This document shows positions 4,431 to 15,116 of a stretch of DNA of 33,959 nt, piece by piece (position 1 is the first letter of the stretch; each line of letters opens with the position of its first letter). This DNA is from a virus. The notes beneath the pieces are model-generated. The model saw only the letters and a program-made list of their open reading frames with translations, ran no database searches and was not told where the DNA came from. The DNA lies in IMG/VR virus record IMGVR_UViG_3300046683_000192, positions 1 through 33,959 of that record; one strand, written 5' to 3'. A program made the translations under genes and the position numbers.

Positions 4431-4512
4431 CCTCTGGAGGCTGCTGATGATAGTCGGCCTCTCGGGTTTACTCTGGATGCTGATCGTCACTGCCTTGCGG
4501 GCGATCATATGA
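4417..4512 (+). CDS. Tiny single-pass membrane protein, 31 aa, GTG start
   Basis: A GTG at 4417 opens a 31-codon frame with an acidic N-terminus (TEDDLWR) and one hydrophobic helix (LLMIVGLSGLLWMLIVTALR). It overlaps the previous gene by 14 bases and the exonuclease start by four (ATGA at 4509-4512). The coupling to the exonuclease and the clean transmembrane segment argue that it is real. Its function is unknown. Confidence 0.45.
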   Translation: MTEDDLWRLLMIVGLSGLLWMLIVTALRAII

Positions 4513-5369
4513 CCGAACCCACCATCATCCGCTGCTCGGCGCTGACCGGCTGGCCCGATTGCCCGCGGCGCGGCGCCGCCCGGTTGTTCGGTCCAGAGGT
4601 TGAGGCGGCCGGGTATCGACTGCGCCACACGATACGCGGAATCGGCGCGGCGATCGGCACGGCGGTCCATTCGGGTGCCGCGATCGTGCTCGGTGAAAAG
4701 GCCCGCAGCGGCAAGCTGCCGCCCGAAAGCGTAGCAACCGATGCGGCGCAACAAACCATGCGCGATCAACTTATGGAGGGCGTCACCTACGAGGGCACCC
4801 GTGGCGTCACAATCAACCGAGCGCAGGCCGAACGCCAAGTTACCGGCATGACGCAGACCTATCACCGGGTCATCGCACCGCAGGTCGAACCGCTCATGAG
4901 CGAACAGAAGCTCGAGGCTGAGATCGAGCCAGGCTTAATTCTAAGCGGTCATCCCGACATTATTTGCCGGGAACCGGGAGCGGTACGCGATCTGAAGACC
5001 GGCGCGAGGCCGGGTGGTACGCATACCGGCCAGATCGGCGGTTATGCATTATTGGCGCGCTCCAACCACATCGACATCGAGGTCGCCGCGGTTGATTTTA
5101 TTCAGCGCGTACCAATCCACAAGCCGCAGCCTGATCCTGTAACAAAGCCGGTGTTGGTGGGGTTGGCCGAGAGCACGGCGGTAAACGTCATCAAACATGT
5201 TTGCTTCGCCCTCGCGATGTTCCGGCACGGTGATCCCGCGCGGCGCATTTCACCCGGTGACCCTGCGGCGTTTCTGGCAAACCCGAGCTCGATGTTGTGC
5301 AGTCCGAAGTATTGCCCGGCCTTCGGCACTGAGTTCTGTCATGAGGGCGACCCAGCGAAAGCAAGGTAA
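4509..5369 (+). CDS. Cas4/AddB-like PD-(D/E)xK exonuclease with probable Fe-S cluster
   Basis: The protein has the RecB-nuclease core: H54 (GTAVHSG), GHPD at 147-150, D161-L-K163 in VRDLKTGA, and the Q175...Y179 motif in GQIGGYALL. Cysteines at 9 and 18 near the N-terminus and at 264, 269 and 277 near the C-terminus bracket the nuclease domain. This is the arrangement that holds a 4Fe-4S cluster in Cas4 and AddB. It most likely resects DNA ends to give single strands for the RecT-like protein encoded downstream. The start sits in an ATGA overlap with the preceding small membrane gene. Confidence 0.85.
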   Translation: MTEPTIIRCSALTGWPDCPRRGAARLFGPEVEAAGYRLRHTIRGIGAAIGTAVHSGAAIVLGEKARSGKLPPESVATDAAQQTMRDQLMEGVTYEGTRGVTINRAQAERQVTGMTQTYHRVIAPQVEPLMSEQKLEAEIEPGLILSGHPDIICREPGAVRDLKTGARPGGTHTGQIGGYALLARSNHIDIEVAAVDFIQRVPIHKPQPDPVTKPVLVGLAESTAVNVIKHVCFALAMFRHGDPARRISPGDPAAFLANPSSMLCSPKYCPAFGTEFCHEGDPAKAR

Positions 5370-5374
5370 GATCG

Positions 5375-5848
5375 ATGACGATGCAGGAAGTAGCCGATCG
5401 ATTGGCTCAACTTGAGCAGGAGAGTGGAGACTTAAACCCGACCGATGTCGTGGAAGACGCTCGCGATCCGACATCCCCGTTGCACGACTTTTTTGAATGG
5501 GACGATAACCAAGCGGCGCACCAATGGCGGCTCAGTCAAGCCCGGCTGCTTATTCGTCGGGTAAAAATCCAAGTCACTGTCCGCGATATTCCAATGGATG
5601 TTGCCCGGTACGTCCGAAACCTCGACGAACCGGGGACCTATAGCGACATCGTGCGGGTGCGTAGCGATGCAGAGAGATCGCGGCGCACCGTCATCGATGA
5701 AATGCACCGCGTGGCGCAAGCCGCCAAACGGGCTCGCACTCTCGCAGCGGTCCTCGGAACGGTCGAGCAGGTGGATGAGATCATCCGCTTGGCTGAAATC
5801 GTGGTGCAACAAACCCGGATAACCGACACCGCAGCCGGTACAGGTTGA
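5375..5848 (+). CDS. Conserved phage hypothetical protein, 157 aa
   Basis: I recognise the pattern around residues 36-65 (PLHDFFEWDDNQAAHQWRLS then QARLLIRRVK) from phage early proteins of unknown function. The rest is largely helical with many Arg and Glu residues. It lies five bases after the exonuclease stop and 19 bases before the next gene, inside the recombination cluster. A role in recombination or DNA processing is plausible from position, but no catalytic motif is visible. Confidence 0.7.
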   Translation: MTMQEVADRLAQLEQESGDLNPTDVVEDARDPTSPLHDFFEWDDNQAAHQWRLSQARLLIRRVKIQVTVRDIPMDVARYVRNLDEPGTYSDIVRVRSDAERSRRTVIDEMHRVAQAAKRARTLAAVLGTVEQVDEIIRLAEIVVQQTRITDTAAGTG

Positions 5849-5867
5849 ACTAACAGGAGGACACGAA

Positions 5868-6764
5868 ATGGCCCGCTCTATCAAATCAGAACCGCCGGAA
5901 ATTGATGTCATCGAGCTAAAGCGCGGACACGGAACCTACTGGTTATTGGGTGAGTCGGCGTTTTTCTGCAACCGGATGGCCGCCAAAGCGAAGCGCTCGC
6001 TTTTATTGCCAAGCGGCCCGATGACCAAAACCCAAAAGGCAACAAAACTAAAACACGCGCCGTTTGCCGAATTTCGTGACTCGCCATACACGCGGCAAGG
6101 ACCGGGCGAGACGCTATTCGAGATGATCGGCAGCGCGCCGAAGATGTCGATTGCGTCGGCCGCGCTGAGAATGCCGACGACCGTCAGTAAAACCGAAATC
6201 AAACAACTGGTTCGCTGCCCCGCCGAGCGCGTGTCACTTTGGGGCATCCCGCGGTTGGATATGTCGGTGGTGCGGATGGCGGGGATCTCACGAACTCCCG
6301 ATATTCGGACGAGAGCCAAGATCGATCGCTGGGCAATGCGGGTTCCGATCGAGTGGGCCGAACCGATGCTTAATGCCCGAAAGGTTACTCAGCTAATGCA
6401 TTCCGCCGGTTTTATTTGCGGGCTGGGAGATTGGCGCATCGAAAAGGGCGGCGAGTATGGCGGCTTCCGTCTTGCCGAACCGGACGATTCCAGGCTCGTC
6501 GAGATCGTCAAGGAAGGCGGCTATCTGGCGCAGCAAGAAGCGCTACGCAATCCGGTTTGCGCCAACGCTGAAACCGAAGAGCTGCTGGCTTGGTATCTCG
6601 AAGAACTGGCGAGCCGGGGCGTCAATCCAGACGACGAGCGACCGGAAGATGTCGAAACCGACGCCGATGAATTTGTCTTCGGCGCTGGTGACGAAACGCT
6701 GGTCGCGCCTAACGGGCCGACATCCGCGCTTCCCGTGCAGAACACCGAGGATTTTCACCCGTAA
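5868..6764 (+). CDS. Conserved phage protein with GDWRxxKGG motif, function unknown
   Basis: This 298-aa protein starts after a strong AGGAGG. Its only distinctive element is FICGLGDWRIEKGGEYGGFR (about residues 182-201), a motif I recall from uncharacterised phage proteins encoded near recombination genes. The C-terminal quarter is acidic and low-complexity (DDERPEDVETDADEF), as in many single-strand-DNA-associated proteins, though no OB-fold signature is clear. It is followed immediately by the G-rich pentanucleotide array and then the RecT-like gene. A role in replication or recombination is inference. Confidence 0.65.
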   Translation: MARSIKSEPPEIDVIELKRGHGTYWLLGESAFFCNRMAAKAKRSLLLPSGPMTKTQKATKLKHAPFAEFRDSPYTRQGPGETLFEMIGSAPKMSIASAALRMPTTVSKTEIKQLVRCPAERVSLWGIPRLDMSVVRMAGISRTPDIRTRAKIDRWAMRVPIEWAEPMLNARKVTQLMHSAGFICGLGDWRIEKGGEYGGFRLAEPDDSRLVEIVKEGGYLAQQEALRNPVCANAETEELLAWYLEELASRGVNPDDERPEDVETDADEFVFGAGDETLVAPNGPTSALPVQNTEDFHP

Positions 6765-6774
6765 GTCGCCACGG

Positions 6775-7345
6775 TGGCGCGTCTTATGGCTGCGCTGGGC
6801 GTGCCGCGCCCGGTGCAGCGTCACGGTGCGGCGGTCAAGGTCAGGTCGGATGCGGTTAGGTCGGGAAAGACCGGGTCTGGTCGGGCGATCGGGGCAAGGC
6901 GCGGCATGTTTTGGATGGGCGAGGCGGTAGCGGTTTGGAGTGGCCGGCAGGTAGAGGACTGGACCGGCGCGTAGAGGACGGGAGTGGTCTTGCATGGACG
7001 GGAGCGTTGTGGCGTGGCGGTCGGGGCTTGGCGTGACGGGCAGAGGCGGGGCAGATCCCGGTATGGACCGATGTGGTTTGTTCAGGACGGGCGCGGCACG
7101 GCGGTCGAGGCGGGGCGTGACGCTGGCGAGGTGGGGCCAGGTTTGGCGGGGCGAGCTTTGGTGTGGCACGGCAAGGCGGTTACGGCGAGCCCTGGCGAGT
7201 CGCGGCCTGACGCGGCTTGGCGAGGCTGGGCAAGGCGCGAGCCTGGCGAGGCATGGCGAGGCGAGGACCTGGACAGGCAAGGCGGTCGAGGTGAGGTCGG
7301 GCGAGGGATGGCTAGGTGAGGTTGTCATAACGCGGCAAGGTTTGG
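6775..7345 (+). repeat. G-rich degenerate pentanucleotide (NNGGC) array
   Basis: Nearly the whole 614-bp gap between the 298-aa gene and recT is a G-rich, C-poor-skewed stretch in which GG or GGC recurs every five bases with drifting neighbours. Examples are CTGGCGAGGCATGGCGAGGC (about 7242-7261) and the TTGGCGAGGCTGGGCAAGGC region (about 7219-7238). The period of five is not a multiple of three, so the frames that happen to be open give only Gly/Arg/Trp/Ala-rich low-complexity products. I see no real gene. Possible roles are a recombination or replication start site, an R-loop or G-quadruplex former, or a structured RNA. Confidence 0.8.
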
Positions 7346-7378
7346 TGGGCGCATTTCTGAAAGGGAGGATTTTCGGCA

Positions 7379-8251
7379 ATGGCACAGAGCACAGGCGAAC
7401 GGCCGGCGCTGGTCGCGCCGCGCGAGGCAGCATCAATCCCGATCCGCTCGGCACCCGAAGGCGGCAAGGGGATCTTGCAGAACCCCGAGCGCTTCGAATT
7501 TATGCAGCGGGTTGCGCGGCTATATTCCGAAAGCCAGCTCGTGCCGCAGCACCTGCGCGGCAAGGTCGCGGATTGCTTCATCGCGCTGCAGATGGCCGAT
7601 GCGATGAACGAAGATCCGCTGATGGTGCTGCAGAATATCTATATCGTGGCCGGGCGGGCCGGATGGTCGGCGCAATACATGATTGCGCGCGCCAATCGCT
7701 CGGGCAAATTCCGCGGGCCTTTGCGGTGGCGCAGTACAGGCCAGGGGGATGCGCTGACGGTAACATGCTTTGCCGATCTGGCGCATGTCACCGAAGGCCA
7801 ACGGGTCGAGGTGACGCTCGACATGGCGACGGCTAAGTCCGACGGCTGGACGCGCAACGAAAAATACAAAAGCATTCCCGAAGCGATGCTGACCTGGCGC
7901 ACGGCCTCGTGGTTGGTGCGCCGCTATTGTCCCGAGGTGATGATGGGCCTGCCGACCGCCGACGAATTGGAGGATACGCGGCGGGCGGCTGCTTGGGATG
8001 ACGGCTTACAAGATGTAACGCCGGAGCATCGACCCGCCGAATTGGTCGCTGATGACACAGAGGCGAAATCTCCGGCGGAAGAATCGGCGCCGCGCCGCCG
8101 GGGAAGGCCGCCCGGTAGCCGGAACGCGCTGCCGGCTACTGCGGTAGCGGAAAGCGATGAACCCGCACCAGCGAGCCCGCCGCCGCCGCCAGCGGCATCG
8201 CCCGAGCCCGAGCCGCCGCCCGAGCAACAGCGGCGCGTTGTGTTTGATTGA
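7379..8251 (+). CDS. RecT-like single-strand annealing protein
   Basis: Residues 35-190 follow the phage RecT-family pattern: F(41)MQRVARLYSESQLVPQHLRG, an ADCFIALQMADAMNEDPLMV helix pair, then LQNIYIVAGRAGWSAQYMIA. RecT proteins coat and anneal single strands made by a partner exonuclease, here probably the gene at 4509. The C-terminal 80 residues are disordered and Pro/Glu-rich and include an AT-hook-like RRRGRPPGSRN (239-249), an unusual add-on. GGGAGG lies about 10 bases before the ATG. It is directly downstream of the G-rich array and eight bases upstream of the ATPase gene. Confidence 0.8.
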   Translation: MAQSTGERPALVAPREAASIPIRSAPEGGKGILQNPERFEFMQRVARLYSESQLVPQHLRGKVADCFIALQMADAMNEDPLMVLQNIYIVAGRAGWSAQYMIARANRSGKFRGPLRWRSTGQGDALTVTCFADLAHVTEGQRVEVTLDMATAKSDGWTRNEKYKSIPEAMLTWRTASWLVRRYCPEVMMGLPTADELEDTRRAAAWDDGLQDVTPEHRPAELVADDTEAKSPAEESAPRRRGRPPGSRNALPATAVAESDEPAPASPPPPPAASPEPEPPPEQQRRVVFD

Positions 8252-8258
8252 GGCAACC

Positions 8259-9950
8259 ATGACGATCGCCTTTCAAATTCGCGATTTCCGCGGGTGCATT
8301 CGCGCCGATATTGAATGCTCGCCGATCGCGATCATCGGCGGGCGAAACGGCGCCGGAAAAAGCTCGATCGCGCAGGGCGCGGGCGCGGTGCTGACCGGGC
8401 AGGCGCTTCCCTTCGCCGGCCTGGCTCGAGGATCGGCGGGCGTTCTAGTGCGCACCGGCGCCAGCGGGGCGAGCGTCACCGTTAAGACCGAATCGGGAAC
8501 AGCGCGGATCGATTGGCCGGCCGCGCAGCCCGTCAGCGAGGGCGAACCGCCCACCGCGAGCCCCTATGCGGCTGGGTTGGTGAGCGTTGCGACGATGCCG
8601 CCGACCGAGCGCGTTCGCGTTCTGTCCGAATATCTAAAAAGCGATCCGACTCGCGAAGATTTGCGCGCGGCGCTCGAGCGCACGCCCGGCCTCGCCGAGC
8701 ATACCGAGGCGATATGGCAGCTGATCCAGGCGAAGGGTTGGGACGGCGCCCATTCGATCCGCAAGGAAAAGGGCGCCGAGTTCAAGGGCGCGTGGCGCCA
8801 GGTCACGGGCATCAATTACGGCTCGCGCGTGGCGGCCAGTTGGCGGCCCGATTTGGCCGAGGAAACGCTCGCCGAGCCCGAGCTCGTGGCACTGGTCGAG
8901 CAGGCCGACCGGGAACGCAACCGAGCGGTTGCCGCTGCCGCGGTGTCGAGTGCCGAGCGCGAGCGGCTGACCGGCGAGGTGGCGGCACTCGATGGCGTAA
9001 CCGGCTATCTCGAAAAGGCCGAGGCCGAGGTTGCCCGGATCCAGGGCGAGATTGCCGCGGCACGCGAGCGGCGCGCGGCGCTGCCCTCGGGCGAGCAGCC
9101 GGTGACCATGCCCTGCCCGCATTGCGGCGGTGCGCTCATGCTGCGCCGGGTCAGCTTAGTCGAGACTCGCCTCGAAGCGGCCGGGCCAGGAATCGCTGGC
9201 GACGAATTACGCGCGAACCGGCGCGCGATCGCCGAGCTCGACGGCCAGCTTGAACGCCGCGCCGGTGACCTGGTGGCGGCGCAAGTGACGGCTGACCAAG
9301 CCCGAGTAGCGCTCGCGGCCGCGGTCACCGCGCGCCAGCGCCTCGCCGACATGCCCCAGGTGCCGACCGCCGAGGCGCCCGACCTCGAGGCGGCGCGTAC
9401 CGCGCTGACCCGCGCCGAACGGCGGCTGGCGCTGTTCCGGCAAAAGCGCGAGGCCGACGACCTCTATTCAAAGATCGCTGGCAACGAGCTCGTGCTCGAG
9501 CTCCTGGCGCCCGACGGGTTGCGCGCGAAACGCTTGTCGCAGGTGCTTGAGGTCTTTAATTCGCAGGTGCTCGGCGAGCTCGCTGCGTCGGCCGGCTGGC
9601 GTCCGGTCACAGTCGCGCCCGATTTGTCGGTGAGCTACGCCGGGCGCCCCTATGCGCTCTGCGCGACGTCGGAACAGTACCGGGCCCGCGCGGTGCTGCA
9701 ACTGGCTATGGCCCGCCTCGATGGGTCAAGCATGGTCGTGCTCGATGCGGCCGATGTGCTCGATGGCCCCACCCGTTCGGGCCTGTTCGGAATGCTCGAG
9801 GCGGCCGGCCTGCCGGCGCTCGTGGCGATGACCTTAAGCCGGCGCGAGCAGCTTCCCAATCTGGCGACCGCGGGCCTCGGCAAAAGTTTTTGGATCGAGG
9901 CCGGCATCGCCGAGCCTCTGCCGGCGGCCCCGCGCGAGGCCGCGGCATGA
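8259..9950 (+). CDS. Rad50/SbcC-like AAA ATPase with zinc-hook-like motif
   Basis: Starting at ATG 8259 gives 563 aa beginning MTIAFQIRDFRGC, the usual opening of SMC/RecF-like ATPases. Walker A is GGRNGAGKSS (27-36) and a Walker B-like strand is MVVLDAADVLDG (about 491-502). Between them is a long Ala/Glu/Arg-rich coiled coil broken by CPHCGG at 286-291, the position and form of a Rad50-type zinc hook. A longer upstream frame overlaps recT and is rejected. No SbcD/Mre11 nuclease is encoded nearby, so it may work with the phage exonuclease. It overlaps the next gene by ATGA. Confidence 0.83.
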   Translation: MTIAFQIRDFRGCIRADIECSPIAIIGGRNGAGKSSIAQGAGAVLTGQALPFAGLARGSAGVLVRTGASGASVTVKTESGTARIDWPAAQPVSEGEPPTASPYAAGLVSVATMPPTERVRVLSEYLKSDPTREDLRAALERTPGLAEHTEAIWQLIQAKGWDGAHSIRKEKGAEFKGAWRQVTGINYGSRVAASWRPDLAEETLAEPELVALVEQADRERNRAVAAAAVSSAERERLTGEVAALDGVTGYLEKAEAEVARIQGEIAAARERRAALPSGEQPVTMPCPHCGGALMLRRVSLVETRLEAAGPGIAGDELRANRRAIAELDGQLERRAGDLVAAQVTADQARVALAAAVTARQRLADMPQVPTAEAPDLEAARTALTRAERRLALFRQKREADDLYSKIAGNELVLELLAPDGLRAKRLSQVLEVFNSQVLGELAASAGWRPVTVAPDLSVSYAGRPYALCATSEQYRARAVLQLAMARLDGSSMVVLDAADVLDGPTRSGLFGMLEAAGLPALVAMTLSRREQLPNLATAGLGKSFWIEAGIAEPLPAAPREAAA

Positions 9951-14585: not shown

Positions 14586-15116
14586 TCATAAAGCATTGAT
14601 CGTCACGGCGCCCTGCCGGGTACGAACCGAGGCGATCACCGCGAACACCTCGGCATCGCTGGTCGCCTTGATCGCGGTCGTCAATGCGACCCTCGCCCCC
14701 GCGTCCCAGAGACTGGCGCCGCCGTCCCAGATACTGGCGCCGCCGTCCCAAATCGATTCTCTTGGTAGTGTGTTAAGCCATTCTGCCTTGGATTGAGCTG
14801 TGATCCGCCCAGCCAGTGCCCGAATCGTTGGCAGGCCCGCTCGAGCATTAGATGTGGCACTGACTCGGCCGGCAAGGTTGATATGCAACGCAACATGCGA
14901 TGCCGCTTGGCTGACCGTGGTTTTGACCGAGGCCGATAGCGTGACCCCGGCAGAGAGCGCTGTCGCCGTCCCAACGGCGGCGGCTTGGCTGGTGATCGTC
15001 GCGCTGAGACCGATCCCGGCAATGAGTGCTTCGCGAACGATGCCGCCGGCCCGAAGCTGCCCCGCTTCAGCGACGAGTGCTTCCCGGCCAAGGCCGCCTA
15101 AGCGGGCGTCAGTCAT
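14586..15116 (-). CDS. Late-region hypothetical protein with WDGGAS repeats
   Basis: This 176-aa protein is Ala/Thr/Ser-rich and beta-prone (SAGVTLSASVKTTVSQAASH). It carries 2.5 copies of a seven-residue unit, SIWDGGA SIWDGGA SLWDAGA, near residue 120, encoded by near-identical 21-bp DNA repeats. The last part (VFAVIASVRTRQGAVTINAL) resembles virion proteins. It lies just downstream of the tail-fibre gene, so it may be a fibre accessory or minor virion protein. No family is recognised. Confidence 0.55.
   Translation of the reverse strand: MTDARLGGLGREALVAEAGQLRAGGIVREALIAGIGLSATITSQAAAVGTATALSAGVTLSASVKTTVSQAASHVALHINLAGRVSATSNARAGLPTIRALAGRITAQSKAEWLNTLPRESIWDGGASIWDGGASLWDAGARVALTTAIKATSDAEVFAVIASVRTRQGAVTINAL
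14699..14760 (-). repeat. 21-bp tandem repeat inside the 176-aa gene
   Basis: CCGTCCCAGATACTGGCGCC-type units repeat at 21-bp spacing (about 2.5 copies, first unit slightly diverged). The repeat is in frame and encodes S(I/L)WDGGA, so copy-number change would keep the reading frame. Confidence 0.7.

Follow-up and report, generated by a model that had tools for sequence, protein, structure and literature searches.

A GGY/NN repeat array beside a RAMP-fold gene points to a VIPR guide locus in a temperate phage

The window analysed here, the whole 33,959-nucleotide stretch of viral DNA, very probably carries a temperate-phage VIPR locus, in which a repeat array would give rise to guide RNAs that are coated by the protein Vipr and silence rival phages, with one guide directed at a capsid gene and with Vap as the partner protein. 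VIPR is a phage-encoded RAMP/CRISPR-like system described in the main text of a 2026 preprint (PMC13142463), with Escherichia phage SUSP1 as its model phage. There it comprises the RAMP protein Vipr, an accessory gene named vap, and vrRNAs in which GGY and NN alternate and the NN pairs read DNA while skipping one base, and it is proposed to be ancestral to CRISPR (PMC13142463). The window holds a GGY/NN array, a neighbouring protein with the fold and homology of Vipr, and a guide that matches a capsid motif, and arrays of this type co-occur with Vipr across viral contigs. The locus is laid out as follows.

5375-5848, + strand: putative Vap-like accessory protein, 157 aa (homology to vipr-adjacent genes)
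5868-6764, + strand: Vipr homologue, RAMP (Cas7-like) protein, 298 aa (AlphaFold model, homology)
6765-6829, + strand: leader between vipr and array, ~65 nt, conserved among four sequences
~6830-7348, + strand: candidate vrRNA array of GGY/NN tracts (lag-5 identity, phase model, tract decoding)
6830, 6923, 7016, 7100, 7175 and 7281, + strand: GGCGGT phase resets, the commonest reset site (tract decoding)

Results and Discussion

Periodicity and layout of the array

An earlier note on this DNA had described a five-base array with a GGC core, about 570 bp long and confined to one strand. Across 6764-7355 the lag-5 identity was 0.45 (z = 7.2 against 500 dinucleotide shuffles), and the recurrence of GG was in excess at lag 5 (z = 6.7), lag 10 (z = 6.5), lag 15 (z = 4.9) and also lag 20, the lags from 5 to 20 spanning z of ~5-6.7. 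GC skew over the same interval was +0.37, the DNA being G-rich on one strand, and the strongest windows of the 34 kb for both lag-5 identity and GC skew fell in the array region. The period and its strand bias, for which autocorrelation and G-skew against shuffles had been proposed as the check, were thus in clear excess, and the expectation of a G-rich transcript agrees with the strand-specific G-richness of the array. Under a five-phase GGYNN model the array scored 146.5, where shuffles averaged -22.9 ± 11.2 (z = 15.1). G made up 95% of phase 0; the other phases were 76% G (phase 1), 57% C plus 25% T (phase 2) and variable (phases 3 and 4); these percentages lean towards the GGYNN model since the model picks the phases, a bias from which the z-score is free as the shuffles were treated alike.

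The description of the repeat can be refined. The five-base core stands, but it is GGY and not GGC alone, and the array proper runs from about 6830 to 7348, with 6765-6829 forming a separate leader. The period holds within about a dozen in-phase tracts that are split by 1-nt phase resets, and is not one unbroken run. The distance from the vipr stop to the array start is 66 nt, and the leader shows 82-90% identity among the window and its relatives L151, L155 and L156; a long GC hairpin (~6788-6819 in the window) is predicted in each of these, the comparison covering these four sequences only. No repeated 3' tail between array units was recognised in the window or in the relatives' arrays inspected. 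A Rfam scan at the locus gave sub-threshold matches only, which were judged chance; a CRISPR repeat match lay at 6789-6819 with 16.5 bits against a gathering score of 39 bits, and a type III CRISPR direct-repeat array is in this sense absent at the locus.

Vipr, Vap and the phage context

The protein encoded directly upstream of the leader is well supported, by homology and structure prediction, as a single-RRM RAMP-fold Vipr homologue. Its AlphaFold model (pLDDT 86.9) found its best PDB matches among CRISPR Csm3/Cas7-type RAMPs (Foldseek E ~1e-4), and VIA-align against these gave Z up to 9.6 over ~156 residues, the fold being common to both at 8-14% identity in the top matches. The RAMP core covers approximately residues 16-206 and the C-terminal extension beyond it is predicted to be helical and disordered, while G181, G185, R190 and G198 are invariant in 44 sequences. 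Homologues include gp19 of Gordonia phage ODay (3e-15) and P21_9 of Pseudomonas phage LESphi2 (2.7e-9). Direct comparison with SUSP1 agp039 gave only 0.005, and the LESphi2 homologue, which matches agp039 at 8e-49, bridges the window protein to SUSP1. We took agp039 as the SUSP1 Vipr on the strength of its size, the accessory gene next to it and the GGY arrays on its flanks, the preprint main text giving no locus tag. PADLOC returned no match for Vipr and, weak AAA matches aside, no Cas proteins among five neighbouring proteins. Genome matches of the Vipr clade numbered five, mostly MAGs of mixed phyla.

The putative Vap has homologues beside vipr in Quico (gp58), UmaThurman (gp41) and ODay (gp20), with E values of 1e-10 to 1e-12, and its family comprises 34 ORFs among the viral loci collected. 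Its model is of high confidence (pLDDT 92.5), a fold search of the PDB gave no confident match that would bear on the DNA-binding role predicted for Vap, and PADLOC gave a weak AbiEii-like match (4e-4); by BLASTP the window Vap had no detectable similarity to that of SUSP1. The virus record carries further phage genes, namely integrase, portal, tape measure and head-tail adaptor. An MT-A70 family DNA methyltransferase is encoded at 875-1894 on the minus strand (Pfam 2e-20), and a 21-bp tandem repeat occurs at 14702-14750 (2.3 copies, 96%).

Guides and the one-base-skip code

Decoding of the in-phase tracts gave the following candidate guides in the window.

6834-6889, + strand: guide tract, 11 dinucleotides, no target in the in-frame scan
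6946-7019, + strand: guide tract, 14 dinucleotides, no target in the viral records searched
7020-7103, + strand: guide tract, 16 dinucleotides, capsid-motif match through dinucleotides 2-11
7123-7178, + strand: guide tract, 11 dinucleotides, no target in the in-frame scan
7179-7239, + strand: guide tract, 12 dinucleotides, no target in the viral records searched
7285-7323, + strand: guide tract, 7 dinucleotides, from tract decoding, too short for a target search

The code was examined on 863 unique tracts decoded from the collected viral loci. With eight exact dinucleotides, a 1-nt skip gave 46 matches from 19 guides, against 12 at a 0-nt skip, 3 at a 2-nt skip and 8-16 once the dinucleotides had been shuffled; the count at a 3-nt skip was inflated by matches to array-like sequence. 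Reversed order gave 29 matches from 11 guides, and because reversed-order guides outscore shuffled ones, part of the excess is compositional. Among the matches of ten or more exact dinucleotides, a guide of L182 matched the prohead protease gene of L172 (identity by Pfam) and a guide of L218 the terminase genes of L206 and L228 (L206 by Pfam), and in all of these NN occupied codon positions 1-2, so that the wobble base was the one skipped. A guide shared by L155 and L154 matched two capsid genes of L039 (Pfam Phage_capsid). L039 has two tandem major capsid genes, at 200-1333 and 5051-6496, both matched by the same L155 guide; it also bears an array of its own, from which one guide matches a capsid-like gene in L311. 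A second set of 119 loci, searched with ten dinucleotides and up to one mismatch allowed, gave 10 matches at a 1-nt skip, one of them from a low-complexity guide, against none at skip 0 or skip 2, none in either of two shuffles and 4 in reversed order; as this set was chosen with the window capsid guide, its independence extends only to the other guides for which it was used. Judged by these matches, the 1-nt-skip target code appears well supported computationally for guides of the clade and, through an inexact match, for one window guide.

That window guide is the tract at 7020-7103, whose dinucleotides 2-11, read with the 1-nt skip, correspond to F-V-G-E-G-[S/R]-P-I-P-V, where F-V-G-E-G-x-P-I-P-V is a motif conserved in the major capsid proteins of phages. 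Against the L039 capsid gene (Phage_capsid by Pfam; motif FVGEGQPIPV) it agrees at 18/20 bases across these ten dinucleotides, in register with the codons and with the skipped base at the wobble position, and when it was scored in-frame along eleven capsid homologues, the corresponding motif came out best in nine. The exact ten-dinucleotide pattern had no match in viral_contigs. With dinucleotide 7 left open it occurred in at least 120 viral contigs, always in codon register and inside a long ORF, and the same dinucleotides in reversed order in none; as the open dinucleotide was picked after seeing L039, this count gauges conservation of the motif and not aim. The evidence that the tract aims at capsid is the 18-base agreement together with the codon register. 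We estimate that an L039-like match for the window guides would arise by chance in about 1 in 8 such scans, and the match is convincing through its codon register and the capsid identity of the gene, not through the score alone. Dinucleotides 12-16 agree poorly with capsid genes, which fits an effective guide of ~10 dinucleotides, as in the L155 and L182 matches. An 8-dinucleotide sub-pattern of this guide gave unrelated matches only, none extending past the searched stretch. The guides at 6946-7019 and 7179-7239 found no target in 49 whole viral records at up to three mismatches, and in-frame scans of the other window guides gave at best 15-17 of 20 bases, judged chance. Contig 3300046543_000437 carries a near-cognate capsid together with a 70%-identical Vipr relative (L156/L314).

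As several window tracts are short and irregular, with several phase shifts, and only one guide has a recognisable target, and that an inexact one, the array could be VIPR-derived and since decayed, or used otherwise, as in regulation of the phage's own genes and not in attack on rivals. We regard this as unlikely, as the Vipr and Vap ORFs are intact, the GGY phase is as strong as in the Quico array (z of 15.1 versus 14.3), and within the window the capsid guide comes no closer to a self-match than 6 mismatches in 20, a partial test given that no capsid gene is identified on the contig.

The array pairs with Vipr and not with recT

The gene that follows the array is recT (identified by PHROG 561), and the earlier note had linked the array to it, suggesting a cis-acting function or a structured RNA. 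A DNA-only search of viral contigs for seven consecutive GGCNN units returned 120 loci, which were scanned with a Vipr HMM built from six Viprs from outside the searched contigs. Vipr was present in 79/120, in 78 of them on the same strand as the array, at a median distance of 50 nt. In the other 41/120 (among L004-L123; e.g. L052, L063 and L095) no Vipr was detected; some of these are cut by contig or locus ends, and others may have divergent Viprs or be stand-alone arrays. The reverse search gave 85 loci from the Vipr alignment, most with a same-strand array close to vipr. Among 13 RecT relatives, on the other hand, none had Vipr and none had a period-5 array on the recT strand, the single weak call (L130) being on the opposite strand, and L155, a close relative, has a helicase gene following its array. 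Adjacency to recT is thus incidental: the partner of the array is Vipr and recT is a bystander. The VIPR genes and recT are flanked by a PD-(D/E)XK exonuclease-like gene (4509-5369) and an AAA/SbcC-like ATPase gene (8157-9950), which places the VIPR module inside a recombination cluster.

A cis-acting recombination element serving recT, whether an origin, a Chi-like site, an R-loop or a G-quadruplex, would suit an array that lies directly before recT and is G-rich on one strand. It is nevertheless highly improbable in view of the RecT relatives and L155, and also because G-quadruplex motifs are at the shuffle level (1 versus 0.9, no enrichment) and the variable bases encode a capsid motif. From the functions suggested earlier, that of a functional RNA remains, with a guide array as its best-supported form, while origin, recombination site and G-quadruplex find no support.

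Coding content

The view that the array holds no protein gene was borne out, as a Pfam search of the long ORFs spanning it (6994-7836 on the plus and 6543-7454 on the minus strand) matched no family. A neutral microsatellite-like expansion or a misread coding repeat is scarcely credible: Tandem Repeats Finder does find weak arrays at 7185-7291, long ORFs do overlap the array and annotators have called such arrays genes, but conservation is confined to the GGY positions, the NN bases being variable and informative, a 5-nt period is unfit for codons, and placement beside vipr on the same strand is consistent across 78 loci. Hypothetical genes are annotated on the GGC arrays of UmaThurman (gp40, L139:3583-3906) and Florinda (gp59, L003:4029-4271); the translation of gp40 is a repetitive R/G/A-rich peptide, and gp40 is probably a mis-annotated guide array.

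Comparison with known VIPR loci

The locus resembles SUSP1 VIPR in its RAMP-fold Vipr, adjacent accessory gene, same-strand GGY/NN guides, phage-encoded nature and skip-1 reading that passes over the wobble base. It differs in gene order (vap-vipr-array, against vipr-vap in SUSP1), in the ~90-aa C-terminal extension of its Vipr, which at 298 aa exceeds the ~20 kDa type that the preprint describes (PMC13142463), and in its units, which are split by GGCGGT resets with no per-unit tail seen, whereas a structured 3' tail after the repeat tract is described for the SUSP1 clade, type II (PMC13142463). As the preprint main text describes several array architectures, staggered arrays with overlapping vrRNAs included, we did not treat this tail as defining for VIPR (PMC13142463). 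The targets here are capsid, protease and terminase genes, while those in the preprint main text are satellites and lysogeny regulators (PMC13142463).

Likeness is also found in Mycobacterium phages Quico and Florinda and Gordonia phages ODay and UmaThurman, all of which have a homologous Vap and, as in the window, a same-strand array beside the Vipr-Vap pair. The Gordonia phage Viprs match the window Vipr directly and that of Quico through them, and the Quico array was found by blastn. Their Vipr-Vap order is reversed relative to the window and their Viprs are ~200 aa without the extension. The locus is very probably a new member of the known, very recently described VIPR kind, and its array style may be a variant.

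Mechanism and array architecture

By analogy with the preprint's experiments on relatives (PMC13142463), the array would be transcribed into G-rich guide RNAs (vrRNAs) and these would be coated by Vipr, a minimal Cas7-like RAMP, the protein holding each GGY. The two N bases would then pair with two out of each three positions of double-stranded DNA, leaving a 1-nt skip, and the bound complexes would most likely repress, and so silence, genes of rival phages. One guide would read the conserved major capsid motif with its skipped base on the codon wobble position, and the 157-aa neighbour would act as the accessory Vap.

The nearest relatives of the window have 70-72% Vipr identity, a shared leader and mostly different guides, and in close relatives the unit separator is the GGCGGT phase reset. 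Their arrays can be large, with ~50 anchors over 2.6 kb in L155 and ~37 in L151/L152, and ~46 in the more distant L162/L163; very long arrays lie at L155:4738-7330, L162:6389-8890 and L151:5979-8101. L155 and L156 have 72 nt of units in common, at 94% identity, and differ in the units around them, which is consistent with guide turnover. It is possible, though somewhat short of probable, that these loci represent a distinct high-capacity VIPR architecture, in which a single hairpin leader is followed by an uninterrupted run of up to ~50 tail-less guides, each bounded by a -1 reset at GGCGGTC, close relatives gain and lose guides, and the targets are the most conserved codons in structural genes of rivals (capsid, prohead protease and terminase). 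If true, a phase-coded repeat alone would make up a CRISPR-like memory of multiple targets.

The findings provide independent sequence support for the pairing of array and protein in VIPR and for the skip-1 code outside the phages of the preprint main text, and they name capsid and packaging genes as VIPR targets. The GGC-repeat regions and hypothetical neighbours in phage records such as those of Quico, Florinda and UmaThurman are open to re-annotation, and the relatives' arrays, with their dozens of guides, offer a place to study how guides turn over.
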